This document shows, in pieces, positions 33,675-46,638 of a DNA stretch of 64,000 nt (the first letter of the stretch is position 1; every line of letters begins with the position of its first letter). Origin of the DNA: Nitrosomonas sp. (lineage in GTDB: Bacteria; Pseudomonadota; Gammaproteobacteria; Burkholderiales; Nitrosomonadaceae). Made by a program: the position numbers and the translations under genes. The stretch covers positions 1 to 64,000 of the forward strand of contig JADZAR010000119.1 of NCBI GenBank assembly GCA_020852475.1, given 5' to 3'. The notes below the pieces were generated by a model that did no database searches, was not told where the DNA came from, and saw only the letters and a list, made by a program, of their open reading frames with translations.

Positions 33675-34733
33675 TCAGCAGATACGCGGCAGCTGATCAC
33701 CGCTGAGCCAATCCACCACGCGTCTGCCGCCAAAGCGGGTTTCCATCTGCACAAAGCAATGACTGTCTTCGATGACTTCACCGATAATGGCGGCATTTTG
33801 TCCCAGCGGATGCGCGCGCATTTTGTCCAGCAGCCGGTCCGCGTCCTGCGGCGCGCAAATGGCGATGAGCTTGCCTTCATTCGCCATGTAGAGCGGATCG
33901 AAGCCGAGAAACTCGCAGACGGCGCTGACTTGTTCTTTCACGGGTATATGGTGCTCATACAGCATCATTCCGACACCGGACTGGTGCGCAATCTCGTTCA
34001 ATGCGGCGGCGATGCCGCCCCGCGTCGGATCGCGCAACACATGTATATCCGGCGCTGTTTGAACCATCACGGCGACCAGATTATGCAGCGCCGCGGTATC
34101 GGATTCGAGCGTGCCGTAAAAGGCAAAATCTTCACGCGCCAGCAGGATGGCGATGCCGTGGTCGCCAATGGTGCCGGAAACCAGTATTTTGTCGCCCGGT
34201 TTTGCCCGCTCCGATGAAATATGCACGCCCTCCGGCACCACACCAATGCCGGTTGTGGTAATAAAAACACCGTCCCCGCTGCCCTGTTCGACGACTTTGG
34301 TGTCCCCGGTGATCACCGGAACCGGTATCGCCTGCGCGGCGACGGCCATGGATTCCACGATGCGTTTGAGATCGGCCAGCGGAAAGCCTTCCTCGAGAAT
34401 AAAACCGGCTGACAGATACAGCGGTCTGGCGCCTGACATGACGATATCATTAACGGTGCCATGCACAGAAAGGCTGCCGATATCGCCGCCGGGAAAAAAC
34501 AGCGGCGTGACGACATGACAATCCGTCGACATCACCATGCGTCCGCTGCCGACCGGAAAGCAAGCCTGATCGTTCATTTGCCGCAGATAGTCATTGTCGA
34601 ATGCCGCGATGAAAAGCTGGTCAACCAGTTGCGTCATGGCGCGCCCTCCACTGCCGTGCGCCATTTCCACCCGGCCATGCCTGAAATCAAGCTTGCGCGT
34701 ATAAACCGGCTTTTTTTTCCCTGCTTGCTGCAT
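33675..34733 (-). CDS. hypE: Hydrogenase expression/formation protein HypE
   Basis: VEMAHGSGGRAMTQLVDQLF; C-terminal ...LPRIC with the catalytic C-terminal Cys intact. Confidence 0.96.
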   Translation of the reverse strand: MQQAGKKKPVYTRKLDFRHGRVEMAHGSGGRAMTQLVDQLFIAAFDNDYLRQMNDQACFPVGSGRMVMSTDCHVVTPLFFPGGDIGSLSVHGTVNDIVMSGARPLYLSAGFILEEGFPLADLKRIVESMAVAAQAIPVPVITGDTKVVEQGSGDGVFITTTGIGVVPEGVHISSERAKPGDKILVSGTIGDHGIAILLAREDFAFYGTLESDTAALHNLVAVMVQTAPDIHVLRDPTRGGIAAALNEIAHQSGVGMMLYEHHIPVKEQVSAVCEFLGFDPLYMANEGKLIAICAPQDADRLLDKMRAHPLGQNAAIIGEVIEDSHCFVQMETRFGGRRVVDWLSGDQLPRIC

Positions 34734-35884
34734 CAGCGCATCCTTGCTGTGTCAGCGTTATCATGTTCACGGAAACGCCCATAACGATAATACGCCGCGC
34801 ATGCGCCTTCCGACGACACCATGCACGAACCCAGGGGATTATCCGGCGTGCAGACCGTGCCAAAAATACTGCAATCGCGCGGATGTTTGACGCCGCGTAA
34901 AATTGCGCCGCATTCGCAGGCCTTGTGATCCGCTACCGATAAAATCGGCAGAGTAAAACGCCGCTCGGCGTCAAATGCCGCAAAACGGGATTTGATGCGC
35001 AACGCACTGTACGGCACCGCGCCCAGGCCGCGCCACTCAAACGACCGGCGCAATTCAAATACCTCGGCCACCAGCCGCTGCGCCTTGATATTGCCGTCAG
35101 GCAGAACCGCGCGGGTAAATTCATTCTCCACTTCGGCGCGCCCCGTATTCAGCTGCCGGATGAGCATTAAAATTGCCTGCATGACATCCAGCGGCTCAAA
35201 TCCGGCGATCACGACCGGTTTCTGGAATTCCTCGGCAAAATAAGCGTACGGATTACTGCCGATGATCGTGGAAACGTGCGCCGGGCCGATGAAACCGTCC
35301 AGTCGTACCAATCCCAGTTCACGTATTTCCGGTGACTGCAGGATATGCGAAATCGCCGATGGCGTCAGGACATGATTACAGAAAACCGTGAAATTGGTTG
35401 ATCCCAGCATCTGCGCCTGCTTGATCACGACAGCCGTCGGCGGCGTGGTGGTTTCAAAGCCGATGGCCAGAAAAACCACCTGTTGCTGCGGGTTCTGTTG
35501 TGCAATCTGCAGTGCATCCGCAGCTGAATAGATCATCCGCACATCCGCGCCGCGCGCTTTTTGTTTCAGCAGACTGTCGCCTTGCGCTGTCGGCACACGC
35601 AGCATGTCACCATAACTGCATACAATACATCCCAGGGTTTGCGCCAGTTGTATCATGTTTTCCAGGCGTCCCATCGGCAACACGCACACCGGACAACCAG
35701 GACCATGAATCATATGGATGTTGCCGGGCAGCAAGCCGGGAATGCCATAGCGCGAGATGGCGTGCGTATGTCCGCCGCAAAATTCCATCAGATAGTAATC
35801 GCGATGCGGATCAGCTTCAGCAGCTATCCTGCGGGCAATTTTTCGGGCAATCGCGCCGTTACGGAAGGGTTCAATATACTTCAT
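34733..35884 (-). CDS. hypD: Hydrogenase formation protein HypD
   Basis: MEFCGGHTHAISRYG, IHGPGCPVCVLP, FAIGFETTTPPTA-type motif (FLAIGFETTTPPTAVVI). Confidence 0.96.
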   Translation of the reverse strand: MKYIEPFRNGAIARKIARRIAAEADPHRDYYLMEFCGGHTHAISRYGIPGLLPGNIHMIHGPGCPVCVLPMGRLENMIQLAQTLGCIVCSYGDMLRVPTAQGDSLLKQKARGADVRMIYSAADALQIAQQNPQQQVVFLAIGFETTTPPTAVVIKQAQMLGSTNFTVFCNHVLTPSAISHILQSPEIRELGLVRLDGFIGPAHVSTIIGSNPYAYFAEEFQKPVVIAGFEPLDVMQAILMLIRQLNTGRAEVENEFTRAVLPDGNIKAQRLVAEVFELRRSFEWRGLGAVPYSALRIKSRFAAFDAERRFTLPILSVADHKACECGAILRGVKHPRDCSIFGTVCTPDNPLGSCMVSSEGACAAYYRYGRFREHDNADTARMR

Positions 35885-39129: not shown

Positions 39130-40368
39130 ATGTTGAGATTACTGTCTTTTCTGCTTACAGTTCTTGTCATGTTGCCACTCGGTCAACATGCGCAGGCGTT
39201 TGATCTCGGCACAGACCGTTTGCGTGTCAGCGGTTTTGGCACGCTCGGCCTGACTTGGGGTGGAAAAAAGGATTACGGCCTGCAGAAAGAATTTATTCAC
39301 GATCCCCAATTTGGCGGCGTATCCATACTCACCGACTCAGTCTTTGGTTTGCAGGTGGATTTCAATATCGCCAAAAACCTGGACGCCACCATCCAGGCCG
39401 TCGCGGAAGACCGGATCCGTCAGGATTTCAACAATATCGTCGACTGGGCTTATTTAAGTTACAAACCCACGGCCAATTCAGTCATTCGCGCCGGCAGAAT
39501 GGGCGTCGACTTATTCATGCTGACGGAATACCGTAACGTTGGCTACGCCTATCTATGGACGCATCCCGTCATTGAATTCTACAAACCGATCTCGCTCAGT
39601 CATTATGAAGGTTTCGATTTCAGATATTCGCGCCGGATCAAACCCGGCTATTTCGAATTCAAGGTCTTTGGCGGACAAACCGGTTCGGACATCGATGTAG
39701 GTAGCGGCGAACTTAATTTGAGAATGCGTCCTTTTGTGGGATTCAACACTTCTCTGGAAGATAATGACTGGAAAATCAGACTCACTTATACGACAACGAA
39801 TACAGCGTTTATCAAGGCCCCCGCTGATCCACTGGTCAATGCCTTAAATCGGGTGCCTCAGGCGCTATGGCCCCAAGCTGCGGCATTGCATGATCGATTA
39901 AAAGGCGTGGACACACAAACCCACTATTTTTCCGCCGGTTTTTCTTACGATAAACACAACTGGGTTATTCAGTCAGAGTTCGCACTGATCACATCCCGCT
40001 GGGTCAGCATCGATATGACCAACGGTTATCTCAGCGCCGGCAAGCGTATTGGTCCCGTGACGCTCTATACCGTAGGATCGTATGCCCGCTCCAACAGCCA
40101 ACCGCGCGTCGATCAGAATCAAATCGCTTCTGCTGACTTGCAGGGGCTGGCAATCGCCACGCAGAATCTGCTCAATGCGGTACATATCGATCAAAACACC
40201 GTTTCACTCGGCATGCGCTGGGATTTTCATCCGCGAGCAGCATTAAAAATGCAGTGGGACCACACCTGGACCAGGAAACACGGCGGTGGACTACTGGAAC
40301 TCAACAAGCCGCTTGATCACGATATAACACTGAACACATTCAGTGCTAACCTGAATTTTATATTTTGA
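39130..40368 (+). CDS. Outer-membrane beta-barrel (porin-like) protein
   Basis: Signal peptide ending AQAF; LRVSGFGTLGLTWGG; alternating beta-strand pattern; terminal aromatic residue (NLNFIF). Confidence 0.75.
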   Translation: MLRLLSFLLTVLVMLPLGQHAQAFDLGTDRLRVSGFGTLGLTWGGKKDYGLQKEFIHDPQFGGVSILTDSVFGLQVDFNIAKNLDATIQAVAEDRIRQDFNNIVDWAYLSYKPTANSVIRAGRMGVDLFMLTEYRNVGYAYLWTHPVIEFYKPISLSHYEGFDFRYSRRIKPGYFEFKVFGGQTGSDIDVGSGELNLRMRPFVGFNTSLEDNDWKIRLTYTTTNTAFIKAPADPLVNALNRVPQALWPQAAALHDRLKGVDTQTHYFSAGFSYDKHNWVIQSEFALITSRWVSIDMTNGYLSAGKRIGPVTLYTVGSYARSNSQPRVDQNQIASADLQGLAIATQNLLNAVHIDQNTVSLGMRWDFHPRAALKMQWDHTWTRKHGGGLLELNKPLDHDITLNTFSANLNFIF

Positions 40369-40370
40369 TC

Positions 40371-40868
40371 ATGCGACTTCTGTTCATCCTGACGGCGCTT
40401 ATCATCCTTCTGCCGCATCATGCACTCGCCGATATCGTTGTGATTGTTAATCCAAGAAGCAGCATCACTGCACTGACACACCACCAGATTATCGACATTT
40501 ACATGGGTCGCAATCCCGGATTAGCGGACGACAAAAAATTACAACCCTATGATCAGGCGCTGGATTCAACCATACGATCGGAATTCTACTATGGCATCAC
40601 TGGGAAACCTGCTTCCGCCATCAATGCATATTGGGCCAGGCTGCTATTTACCGGACGCGCCTCTCCACCAAAATCAGTTGCCGATGACAGCGCAATACTG
40701 GACATTATCGAAAAAAATCCGATGGCCATCGGCTATCTTGACAGACGTTATTTAAATGACCAGGTTACTGTCGTCTATACCATCAAAAGACAGGATCAGA
40801 AAGAACCGGACGCTGAATTGCAGAATACACAGCTATCTGACACATTGCCCGTCACGGAAAAACCATAA
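40371..40868 (+). CDS. Periplasmic phosphate-binding-like (PstS-like) small protein
   Basis: DIVVIVNPRSSITALTHHQIIDIYMGRN...FYYGITGKPASAINAYWARLLFTGRASPPKSV; ATG 41-like start just after porin stop. Confidence 0.75.
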   Translation: MRLLFILTALIILLPHHALADIVVIVNPRSSITALTHHQIIDIYMGRNPGLADDKKLQPYDQALDSTIRSEFYYGITGKPASAINAYWARLLFTGRASPPKSVADDSAILDIIEKNPMAIGYLDRRYLNDQVTVVYTIKRQDQKEPDAELQNTQLSDTLPVTEKP

Positions 40869-41448: not shown

Positions 41449-44442
41449 TCATGGCGGTGCGATACTATAGCTAGATTTACTATGCGTCAACAGCCATTCC
41501 GCTGTCCATCTGACACTGGTCATATTCCCCGCCTTATCTTTTACATGCGCTTCAATTTCGGTGCGCAAATCAGTGATCCCATCTTTCAGCGCCAAGGTGA
41601 CGATGCCATGCGCATCAACCCGACGCGGAATATTCTGGCATTGCCGCTGCGGGCGGTAAATACACATGACCAGACTGTCGGGATCAATGCCGCTGCCGGC
41701 ATCCGCCGTACCGATGCGGAATCCGGTGATGCGATTATTGTCAACCATGGCCACCAGGTTCAATACCGGCTTTTGCGTATCTTTTAATTCCTGCGCGCCG
41801 CCCGGCACCCCGAGATCAATCCAGCGCGACAGGATGCCGAGCTCTTCCGGCGTGATGTCAGTCGGATGAGCACTGCCGAAATCGATATCGTTCGGATATT
41901 GATCATCGGTTCGATTATCCGTGCGCTGATTCGCCGCTTTCCAGTACAACAGACTGCCGCGGGAATTGAATGCTTTGATATACCTGGATAAATAAGGCCG
42001 ATTGAGCGCGTGACCATTGATGCCGGACACACGATATTCCGGCGGAGCGCAGGTCTGCGTATTATCCATGACTAGACACCACCACGTCGTGTTGGGTGCA
42101 GTATTCGCACCCTCGGTTCTATCCAGCGCAAGACCGGCGGCAGGCTGCTTGCCGCCATGACAGGAAATACAGCGCCGGTCAAAAATCGGTTTGACATCCC
42201 GCTTGAACTCAATTTGCATGCCATAGCCCGGCGCCATACGAGTATTTACATGATTGCCCGTTTTGCCGGCAAGCAGCGGAATCTGTCCCCGGCCTAGTTC
42301 GGGTATTGGATAATTTGCGTTTGCCGCATGGGATTGCGGGAATTTTATGCGCGTCGGTCTTGAATGCACATGGCAGCCACCACAGGTTTTTTCTTCACCC
42401 GGACGCAAATGTTGCCATGATTGATCGGTATTCAGCGTGCGTCCCTCGCAGTCTATGCCCTGCATGATGTAAGGCGTATTGGCCGGGAAACTGAGTAAAA
42501 AACTGGTATCCGGATAACCACTGGGATCCATGATGCGCTTGCCGTCAGCCGTATAATGCAACACCGGCACTTCGCCGAGTATCGCCACCCGCTCACCGGT
42601 GATGTTGGCGATCTGTTCATGAATATTGGGGCCGCGATTGGGATACGTTGCAATCATGCGTACACCGCACAGCTCATCGTCGTCATAATCAATCGTATCA
42701 GTGCCCTGCAGATTGAACGCATGGAAACTCTCAAAGACCGGCACGCCGCCGCGTGGTCTGGTTTCGCGATCGGTGATCGATGCAGCGCCCAGTAAACCAA
42801 ACGGCGTTCCGGCAGGCAGTTCCTGCCTGTCAACCCGCTTATCCGCCCGCGGAATGATCGCCGGTCTATCCATGCCGTAAATCGCTGAATAAGGCACGAC
42901 GGCTCTGGCCATGATTTCATGCCACTGCGGTGAATCGACGATCAGCTGCAAATCGGACGGATGACGGGAAGGTATTTTTGTGGCCAGATAGATGCCGCCA
43001 TCGCAACCGGGTATGTCCTTGTTCAAATGCGTCAGCAGATTCATGCCGGTTCCGGAACCAGCGCCATGAACCAGTGGCGGTGACGGCAATCCCATTTTTT
43101 TAAAAATATCGTCATTCATGACAATGCTGCACATGCCCTTGAACCAGGTCAACATTAATTGATTGCCAGGCAAAGCACCAGGATGACTCAGTTTCCCGGT
43201 AAACAGCATCGGATCCGCATAACCCGGCGCATACAACACCGGTGGTTCCATCGGTGCGGCGATCTTATCGCTGTTTTGCGCCCATGGCGCGACATTGATG
43301 ACATGATTCGGCACATACATGTCGGCCGGGTGAGCGACTTTATGCGGATCCTTGCCTTCAATGCCTTCCGGCTCGGGAGTCACGCAAATAATAGCACCCG
43401 CGCCGTTGTTGTTGCCGCGGTAATAATCGGAAAAACACACCTGTCCGTTGGAGAGCTGCGCCATAAAATGCGCGGCATTATGATCTTCACCGTAATAACT
43501 GGGAGAATGGTCGCCACTGTGCTGACCAAACAGTGGAAAATTGCCGGCGCCGTCAGGCGCCTGAATATAGATATGAAAAAGATTGTCTATCGTGGTAAAC
43601 CTGCCGGGCGTACCATTGGAATGCCTGAACGGCAATCCGCCAAAAATCTGCCAGCTGGAATAGGCGACGCGCCCATCCATCAGCATAATTGGATGCTGTT
43701 CCTGAGAAAGCGAGTGATGGCTGGACAATTCAAGGTTCGTCCAGTCCGTGTTAATTGCGTAGATACGCGTACCCAGACGATTACTGTTGGTTCTGAATAC
43801 CATGGTCGACAGATTCTGATCGCGCGTCGACGTAAATGCCAGTCGGTCATGATCAATATACGTCGGACCGCTGTCAAAAATACCTTGTTGAAAAGGCATT
43901 GAACGGGTTTTACCGGACTCAACGTCATAAATATGCAGGTGCGCCCCGCTTGCATTCAGGCGCTTGCTCGGCAGCGTGTACCATCCCAGATTTCCGGGCG
44001 CAGCGTCAGGATGCAGTACCTGGCTGTGAAAATTGGCTTTAACATTTTCCAATGTACCGCGAGAAACTGAAAAGGCAATTTCCTTGCCGTCAAACGAAAC
44101 CTGGGGATCAAGCGCGGCACAGGCATTTTGTTGTGATGATTTGGCCGAGCAGTGATAAATAACCTGCTCGTTGCCATCAGGCTGCCGCAAGACCAGATCA
44201 CATGGCGCGGAAAATCCGGAAAAGAAATTGGTCACATCCGGCAGCACATCGTATACATCCAGTCCCTGCAATGTGCGTGTCATTTCCTGCTTGACGCCAT
44301 TCACTGTCACCGTTCCGGTGAGATCATACGTGCCGGTAGCCCGCTCGCAGCGGGAATAAACAATCGGCACTGCAGCAAATGCATAAGCTATATTCAACAG
44401 GCAACACAGCGACAGTAACATCATCAGGCAATATTTTTTCAT
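41449..44442 (-). CDS. HzsA-related di-heme c-type protein (beta-propeller/PD40-like plus C-terminal cytochrome region)
   Basis: 997 aa with signal peptide; two heme motifs CGGCH (42370-42384) and CISCH (42157-42171); PQVSFDGKEIAFS and YIDHDRLAFTSTR propeller-like repeats. Confidence 0.8.
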   Translation of the reverse strand: MKKYCLMMLLSLCCLLNIAYAFAAVPIVYSRCERATGTYDLTGTVTVNGVKQEMTRTLQGLDVYDVLPDVTNFFSGFSAPCDLVLRQPDGNEQVIYHCSAKSSQQNACAALDPQVSFDGKEIAFSVSRGTLENVKANFHSQVLHPDAAPGNLGWYTLPSKRLNASGAHLHIYDVESGKTRSMPFQQGIFDSGPTYIDHDRLAFTSTRDQNLSTMVFRTNSNRLGTRIYAINTDWTNLELSSHHSLSQEQHPIMLMDGRVAYSSWQIFGGLPFRHSNGTPGRFTTIDNLFHIYIQAPDGAGNFPLFGQHSGDHSPSYYGEDHNAAHFMAQLSNGQVCFSDYYRGNNNGAGAIICVTPEPEGIEGKDPHKVAHPADMYVPNHVINVAPWAQNSDKIAAPMEPPVLYAPGYADPMLFTGKLSHPGALPGNQLMLTWFKGMCSIVMNDDIFKKMGLPSPPLVHGAGSGTGMNLLTHLNKDIPGCDGGIYLATKIPSRHPSDLQLIVDSPQWHEIMARAVVPYSAIYGMDRPAIIPRADKRVDRQELPAGTPFGLLGAASITDRETRPRGGVPVFESFHAFNLQGTDTIDYDDDELCGVRMIATYPNRGPNIHEQIANITGERVAILGEVPVLHYTADGKRIMDPSGYPDTSFLLSFPANTPYIMQGIDCEGRTLNTDQSWQHLRPGEEKTCGGCHVHSRPTRIKFPQSHAANANYPIPELGRGQIPLLAGKTGNHVNTRMAPGYGMQIEFKRDVKPIFDRRCISCHGGKQPAAGLALDRTEGANTAPNTTWWCLVMDNTQTCAPPEYRVSGINGHALNRPYLSRYIKAFNSRGSLLYWKAANQRTDNRTDDQYPNDIDFGSAHPTDITPEELGILSRWIDLGVPGGAQELKDTQKPVLNLVAMVDNNRITGFRIGTADAGSGIDPDSLVMCIYRPQRQCQNIPRRVDAHGIVTLALKDGITDLRTEIEAHVKDKAGNMTSVRWTAEWLLTHSKSSYSIAPP

Positions 44443-44674
44443 CGCAAGCTCCCCTCTTCAGCCGACCTCACTTCAGTTCGAGATATCTTTCATTATACCG
44501 CCCGGCATTTCGGATTCCGCCCGTTTTTTTAAAAACGAATGAGTGATCGGCATACCCATCGTACACGCCACACGATAAAATGCATATTTCATACGATAAA
44601 GAAACAGCCCCTTTAAATAACCGGCAACCCGCTCAACGTGGTTGGTGAATATAATTTTTAACAAGGAATTTTGG

Positions 44675-45781
44675 ATGAAAACACGAGCAGCTGTAGCCTG
44701 GCAAGCAGGACAACCTCTGACTATCGAGAACATCGACCTGGAAGGTCCGCAAGCGGGCGAAGTCCTTGTCGAAATCAAAGCCACCGGCATTTGCCACACC
44801 GATTATTACACGCTGTCCGGCGCCGATCCGGAAGGCCTGTTTCCCGCCGTACTCGGGCATGAAGGCGCGGGTGTTGTCGTTGAAGTCGGCAAAGATGTCA
44901 AGTCGCTCAAAGCGGGTGATCACGTCATCCCGCTATACACACCGGAATGCCGTGAATGCAAATTCTGCCTGTCGCAAAAAACCAATCTATGCCAGGCAAT
45001 CCGCACAACACAAGGCAAAGGTTTAATGCCGGACGCCACATCGCGATTTTCGCTGGACGGCAAGCCGCTGTTTCATTACATGGGCACATCCACATTTTCG
45101 AATTACACGGTCGTACCGGAAATCGCACTCGCCAAGATCCGCTCCGATGCACCGTTTGACAAAGTCTGTTATATCGGTTGCGGCGTTACGACCGGCATCG
45201 GCGCAGTACTGTTCACCGCAAAAGTCGAGGCAGGCAGCAATATCGCCGTTTTCGGCCTGGGCGGCATCGGGCTGAACGTCATTCAAGGCGCCAGAATGGT
45301 TGGCGCCGACAAAATCATCGGTATCGACATCAATCCGCAACGCGAAGCCATGGCGCGCGATTTCGGTATGACGCATTTTTTGAATCCGAACGATACGCCG
45401 GACATCGTTGACGCGATTATTCAGCTCACCGGTGGCGGCGCCGACTATAGTTTTGAATGCATCGGCAACACCAAAGTGATGCGGCAAGCGCTGGAATGCT
45501 GCCACAAAGGATGGGGGCGCAGTATCATTATCGGCGTGGCCGAGGCTGGCGCAGAAATCAGCACCAGACCGTTTCAGCTGGTTACCGGACGCAAGTGGGA
45601 AGGTTCCGCATTCGGCGGCGCGCGTGGCCGTACGGATGTTCCAAAAATCGTTGACTGGTATATGGAAGGTAAAATCAATATCGATTCACTGATCACCCAC
45701 ACGTTGAAACTTGACGAGATCAACGAAGGATTCCGGTTGATGAAAGCCGGTGAATCCATCCGATCAGTGGTGGTTTACTGA
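44675..45781 (+). CDS. adhC: S-(hydroxymethyl)glutathione dehydrogenase / class III alcohol dehydrogenase
   Basis: [68 protein letters not shown]; start at ATG 44675. Confidence 0.97.
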
Positions 45782-46638
45782 TGGAACGGCATCTGGAAAT
45801 CCGCAGTCAGCATGGCTGTTTTGGCGGCACACAAGGTTTTTATCAGCATGATTCATCAATCATCGGACTGCCGATGCGGTTTTCGGTTTATCAGCCGCCA
45901 CAGGCACAACAGGAAGCTGTTCCAGTTGTGTTTTTTCTCGCGGGACTGACCTGTACGGAAGAAACCTTCATGATCAAAGCCGGCGCGCAACGTTATGCAG
46001 CGGAATACGGCCTGATGCTGGTCACCCTGGATACCAGTCCGCGCGATACGGGAATTCCGGGTGAAACAGATGACTGGGATTTTGGCGCTGGCGCAGGTTT
46101 CTACCTGGACGCGATTGAACAGCCCTGGTCTGTCCGCTATCTGATGGAAAGCTATATTACGCAAGAACTATACGACATTATTATCCACCAGTTTCCCGCG
46201 GACAAAAACAGAATCGGCATCAGCGGTCACTCGATGGGCGGACATGGCGCATTGACACTGGCGCTGCGACACCCCAACCAATTCCAGTCGGCCTCCGCTT
46301 TTGCACCGATTTGCGCCCCCATGCATTGTCCCTGGGGGCAGAAAGCATTCCGGTTTTATCTGGGCGAGAATCAGGCATACTGGCGCAATCATGATGCCAC
46401 CGCACTGATTGAAGCGGGTCATCAGATATCGTCAGCCATCCTGATTGATCAGGGATTGAACGATCCATTCCTGTCCGAACAGCTGCACCCCAAGCGGCTG
46501 GAGGAGGTCTGCGAGAAAACCGGACAGCAACTGACGTTGCGCTATCATCCCGGTTATGATCACAGTTATTATTTCATCAGCACATTCATCGGCGATCACT
46601 TGAGACACCACCGCGACAGGCTTGATGGAACGTTATAA
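45781..46638 (+). CDS. fghA: S-formylglutathione hydrolase
   Basis: VVFFLAGLTCTEETFMIKAGAQRYAAEYGL; GISGHSMGGHGALTLAL. Confidence 0.97.
   Translation: MERHLEIRSQHGCFGGTQGFYQHDSSIIGLPMRFSVYQPPQAQQEAVPVVFFLAGLTCTEETFMIKAGAQRYAAEYGLMLVTLDTSPRDTGIPGETDDWDFGAGAGFYLDAIEQPWSVRYLMESYITQELYDIIIHQFPADKNRIGISGHSMGGHGALTLALRHPNQFQSASAFAPICAPMHCPWGQKAFRFYLGENQAYWRNHDATALIEAGHQISSAILIDQGLNDPFLSEQLHPKRLEEVCEKTGQQLTLRYHPGYDHSYYFISTFIGDHLRHHRDRLDGTL

Follow-up and report, generated by a model that had tools for sequence, protein, structure and literature searches.

Hydrazine synthase was long believed to be without relatives, and the question of how it arose is open (PMC12758564). In its alpha subunit, HzsA, zinc is held by His587 and Cys303, the iron of haem aI by Tyr591, and haem aII has His772 on its distal side (PMC12758564); haem aII is so remote from the other haems that electron exchange with them would be inefficient (PMC12607021). 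A wider family of hydrazine-synthase-like proteins acting on other substrates, with HzsABC-like genes, was proposed in 2023 (PMC10732223), and many HZS_alpha homologues outside anammox, falling into clades I-IV, were documented in 2025 (PMC12758564). The latter were picked for a nearby beta-gamma partner gene, are often accompanied by a CRTAC1 gene, and are reported to have lost Cys303, Tyr591 and His772 (PMC12758564). The searched literature, with supplements outside the search, yielded no Nitrosomonas member of the family.

The window, a 64,000-nucleotide stretch of Nitrosomonas sp. DNA, carries on its minus strand, at 41449-44442, an open frame of 997 amino acids with an ATG start; the genome is a 2.97-Mb draft, 99.5% complete. 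The frame is a genuine gene under purifying selection, since dN/dS against the orthologue of Nitrosomonas sp. slu-bin5 (95% identity, start codon at the same position) is ~0.07 (0.027/0.405). Reading frame and length are common to the orthologues from other Nitrosomonas. Both the frame and the two CxxCH haem sites listed in the initial annotation (CGGCH at residues 687-691, CISCH at 758-762) stand, the frame by virtue of the 95%-identical orthologue, the dN/dS value and a match to PF18582 above its cut-off. The features of the gene are as follows.

41449..44442, minus strand: HzsA-like dihaem c-type protein, 997 aa, whole gene (ORF, Pfam, AlphaFold fold match, dN/dS)
44374..44442, minus strand: probable signal peptide, residues 1-23, called by eye from the sequence (pLDDT low at residues 17-21)
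42883..44373, minus strand: TolB-like beta-propeller region, ~residues 24-520 (VIA-align matches)
43519..43521, minus strand: His308 within FGQH, where HzsA has the zinc ligand Cys303 (separate alignments agree on the register)
42238..42870, minus strand: HzsA-type middle domain with haem I, ~residues 525-735 (PF18582 match at 42370-42546; region folded alone)
42364..42384, minus strand: haem I motif CGGCHVH, residues 687-693, with His693 in place of the HzsA G-S-Y arrangement (alignment)
41797..42219, minus strand: C-terminal cytochrome c domain, ~residues 742-882 (profile match and model)
42157..42171, minus strand: haem II motif CISCH, residues 758-762 (sequence)
41866..41868, minus strand: His859, at the position of HzsA His772, the haem aII distal ligand (alignments)
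41497..41781, minus strand: C-terminal Ig-like beta domain, ~residues 888-982, absent from HzsA (fold judged from strands E893-E980 in the model only)

The N-terminus resembles a signal peptide (MKKYCLMMLLSLCCLLNIAYAFA-AVP), and ten cysteines (residues 32, 81, 98, 108, 438, 480, 592, 665, 789 and 798) are conserved in a subfamily of 23 close relatives. This signal sequence, the ten subfamily-specific cysteines and the Ig-like C-terminus suggest that the window protein is exported.

The resemblance to HzsA that the initial annotation had seen in the domain architecture is real. The protein scores 44.9 bits against PF18582 (HZS_alpha; gathering score 26.6), and its AlphaFold model (pLDDT 88.4, pTM 0.88) finds Kuenenia HzsA, 5c2v_A, as its first-ranked Foldseek match in the PDB (E 1.4e-25). 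VIA alignment with 5c2v_A extends through all three domains (Z 31.3, 3.2 A, 602 residues between 23 and 887); TolB chains span residues 24-520 with Z ~25. These and LDL-receptor-type propellers, the remaining fold matches in the PDB, are read as common propeller architecture only. Since propellers match many proteins, residues 525-888, comprising haem I and the cytochrome domain, were also folded separately (pLDDT 85). This region alone aligns with HzsA at Z 24.5 over 298 residues and with its next-best match at Z 5.2; the likeness thus exceeds a generic propeller plus cytochrome, the outcome that the initial annotation had set against its own reading. A profile built from 66 homologues picks up Kuenenia HzsA (5c2v; E 1.1e-24), the segments for propeller, haem I and haem II aligning collinearly. 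A profile-profile comparison by HHalign with a reference set of 12 HzsA sequences from anammox Planctomycetota genomes gives a probability of 98.2% across 615 columns. Homology to HzsA spans the propeller, the haem-I domain and the cytochrome domain. The two proteins have in common the three-domain fold, the PF18582 middle domain, two CxxCH haems, a His at the haem-aII distal position and several dozen near-invariant residues, while structural alignment puts their identity at 14-20%.

The active-site ligands, which the initial annotation had singled out for checking, are retained in part. HzsA His587 aligns with His691 of the window protein, and the position of His772 is occupied by His859, which is invariant in 23/23 subfamily members and would by analogy be a haem ligand. 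Tyr591 is gone: the haem-I segment reads CGGCHVHSR, as against C(S/G/T)GCH(D/Y)GSY in 12/12 HzsA. The zinc ligand Cys303, a Cys in 11 of the 12 HzsA sequences, is replaced by His308, again invariant throughout the subfamily (23/23). The registers of His308 and His859 are alignment-based, and MAFFT and HHalign agree on both. The haem-I residues are invariant among the 66 homologues; His693, which follows haem I in the CHxH arrangement, is present in all 66 and does not occur in HzsA. His242, Gln265 and Gly306 are common to HzsA and the window subfamily and are not shared by the more distant group. In other planctomycete homologues the Cys303 position lies in a GN-x motif with Met, Asn, Asp or Gln, so that His308 may have arisen by substitution in an ancient loop instead of being a retained zinc ligand. 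At the position of His772, a His is aligned in one planctomycete homologue too; such a His is therefore not unique to the window subfamily.

Loss of Tyr591 and replacement of the zinc-binding Cys303 by His mean that the chemistry of HzsA cannot be assumed. The window protein reaches 46.9 bits against the NCBIfam HzsA equivalog NF052339 (cut-off 800), for which intact anammox HzsA proteins score ~1520-1606. The absence of an HzsB/C-like partner, noted at the outset for the immediate surroundings, extends to the genome: no such gene lies near the window copy, and searching the 99.5% complete draft gave no homologue for HzsB and, for HzsC, only a generic dihaem cytochrome c peroxidase (E 1.1e-4). 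The proposed phylogenetic comparison with true HzsA places the 23 relatives in one clade (99%), sister to a broader group, from Acidobacteriota, Gammaproteobacteria and others, characterized by the haem-I motif CGGCHAHS; in this quick tree with long branches, anammox HzsA lies far away, beyond a branch with 100% SH-aLRT support. With Tyr591 gone and neither a gamma nor a beta subunit found, hydrazine synthesis appears improbable, and the window protein is almost certainly not a hydrazine synthase. It is instead likely to be an exported, stand-alone dihaem c-type redox protein that has the HzsA fold, forms a subfamily of its own and does not make hydrazine.

Alternatively, a nitrifier might use an HzsA-like haem-I/metal site, with His in place of the zinc-binding Cys, for reactive-nitrogen chemistry in its periplasm (with hydroxylamine or NO, or the formation of an N-N bond). 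The host, described in the initial annotation simply as a non-anammox organism, is a Nitrosomonas and so belongs to a genus of ammonia oxidisers, relatives occur in Nitrospirales and Nitrospinaceae MAGs, His308 occupies the Cys303 position, and His242, Gln265 and Gly306 link the protein with HzsA to the exclusion of the distant group. Against it stand the missing Tyr591 and the lack of HzsB and of a specific HzsC. The gene is present, moreover, in only 7/85 Nitrosomonas genomes (most of these with several copies), and close relatives are found in Colwellia, Sedimenticola and myxobacteria. This distribution argues against a nitrification-specific role, to which the protein would accordingly not be tied, and nitrogen chemistry of this kind is very unlikely. 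Even less likely is the bolder version, in which an HzsA-type haem-metal enzyme, with His for the zinc Cys and His693 for the Tyr, is exported by marine Nitrosomonas and by some Nitrospirales and serves them, beyond the cytoplasm and independently of HzsB/C, in the chemistry of hydroxylamine, NO or N-N bonds. Ammonia oxidation by the window organism itself rests on genus membership: a search of its draft genome for ammonia monooxygenase (PF02461), run without a positive control, gave no match, and amo possibly lies in an assembly gap.

The neighbouring genes are the following.

44642..45781, plus strand: adhC, S-(hydroxymethyl)glutathione dehydrogenase (NCBIfam equivalog); divergent neighbour, ~200 bp gap
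45781-46638, plus strand: fghA (NCBIfam equivalog)
39130-40368, plus strand: putative outer-membrane porin, named by eye, no Pfam match; convergent neighbour, relevance uncertain
40365-40868, plus strand: small substrate-binding-like protein, named by eye, no Pfam match; convergent neighbour, relevance uncertain

The window also contains the hydrogenase-maturation genes hypE and hypD (33675-35884). The divergence from adhC-fghA is as first described, both genes being NCBIfam equivalogs on the plus strand; the one-carbon connection drawn from it does not survive comparison with relatives. The best matches to the window protein are in slu-bin5 (95%, with synteny on both flanks), HKST-UBA151 (80%) and N. 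marina Nm22 and Nm71 (77%). Adjacency to adhC-fghA is confined to slu-bin5. In Nm22, Nm71 and HKST-UBA151 the neighbours of the orthologue are unrelated to those in the window and do not include adhC-fghA, and the link was rejected on account of these differing neighbours in other Nitrosomonas. AdhC, by what is known of its family, is a cytoplasmic enzyme. A function in one-carbon (formaldehyde) metabolism together with adhC-fghA, to which the 200-bp spacing of the divergent pair and its retention in slu-bin5 would point, is scarcely credible.

Partners were also sought on the other flank and elsewhere in the genome. The pair of porin and small protein adjoins another HzsA-like copy as well, in collinear arrangement (locus L045, 1290-3055). 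As an obligate partner the porin was rejected: strong matches occur in ~13/85 genomes and cover 4/7 of those with an HzsA-like gene, and it adjoins that gene in three genomes only. An operon partner conserved across relatives was likewise rejected, none being recurrent. Contig C74 of the same genome (locus L019, 484-2727) encodes a MauG/RoxA-like dihaem protein of 748 aa, adjoining a PEP-CTERM-like gene. In ~28/85 genomes of the genus it is present at full length with 65-75% identity, and others have weaker relatives; the protein was discarded as a substitute HzsC, its full or partial copies being genus-wide and including genomes without an HzsA-like gene.

Marine Nitrosomonas carry several copies of the HzsA-like gene per genome: L002-L004 in the window organism (contigs C47, C52 and C51), L026-L028 and L036-L039 in N. 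marina. In draft genomes the copies end at contig edges, at matching points. A complete genome (G005) has two copies, of 1719 and 1819 aa (L177, L178), with tandem Ig tails; their DNA identity is 49-75% at the N-terminus and 100% over aa ~550-700 and 900-1200, identical cores beside diverged N-termini being a sign of gene conversion. The C-terminal tails vary among members (L043, 7989-12656; L014; L179-L181) and consist of Big_7 Ig domains, PKD-like domains or nothing, and from the Ig-like domain of the window protein onwards its paralogues run on into Big_7 or PKD-like repeats. Differing modules, which are probably extracellular, are thus attached to one and the same haem core. In a Lysobacterales MAG (L030, 7977-14224), two HzsA-like genes converge with 198 bp between them; they have 54% and 27% identity to the window protein. 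In an anammox genome (G388, contig C7, 87947-90192), a third hzsB-hzsC copy is broken by several stops, besides two intact ones.

Paralogues whose tails are PKD-like or hold five Big_7 Ig repeats, copies with variable N-termini and converted cores, and the lack of a conserved partner gene would fit a protein belonging mainly to the cell surface or matrix, its propeller and Ig domains binding a ligand or polymer and its haems being structural or serving extracellular electron transfer. The window copy has but a single Ig-like domain, however, and the invariance of the haem-I residues in 66 homologues suggests chemistry over scaffolding; this alternative is rather doubtful. A purely structural or adhesive role is possible.

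The exported dihaem redox protein favoured here can be compared with two sets of relatives. It shares with the homologues described previously (PMC12758564, PMC10732223) the domain family, the lack of Tyr591 and the expectation that hydrazine is not made; a PF18582 match and a haem-I CxxCH without Tyr591 place it in the broad HZS_alpha family. It differs in that the homologues of PMC12758564 have a partner and lack His772 and Cys303, whereas the window subfamily stands alone and has His at both positions. Neither a fused beta-gamma gene nor a CRTAC1/FG-GAP gene, as found with clades I-III (PMC12758564), lies beside the window copy, and in the neighbourhoods of ~70 homologues a haem-bearing partner is almost never present. 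The CGGCHAHS group (Acidobacteriota, Lysobacterales, Marinicella, Hahella and others; 27-33% identity to the window protein) resembles it in the haem-I motif CGGCHxH, in haem II, in its stand-alone gene and in its position as sister branch. It differs at two sites: the GQH histidine of the Nitrosomonas group is mostly replaced by Phe, and the position of His859 is mostly taken by Met-Pro-Pro-Pro. The latter difference suggests a His/Met haem II in the CGGCHAHS group as against a bis-His, low-potential one in the window subfamily.

In the mechanism proposed for the redox protein, haem I would be placed as haem aI is in HzsA, between propeller and middle domain, but its proximal ligation would be of the ordinary kind, through His691 (or His693); His308, His325 and His693 would, judging from the alignment, line the haem-I pocket or hold a metal. 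Haem II would be a bis-His (His762/His859) low-potential cytochrome. Since haem aII of HzsA is too distant from its fellow haems, haem II may not serve haem I. The protein most likely carries out extracytoplasmic redox chemistry or electron transfer on a small or surface-bound substrate.

That the HZS_alpha family extends beyond anammox was already known; the stand-alone subfamily with His at the Cys303 and His772 positions is a new variant. This subfamily, which includes the proteins of N. marina Nm22 and Nm71, keeps the whole fold of the HzsA alpha subunit and has His at two ligand positions that are reported lost in other homologues. As a single-gene, single-subunit system, it makes the chemistry of the fold testable apart from the anammox complex.
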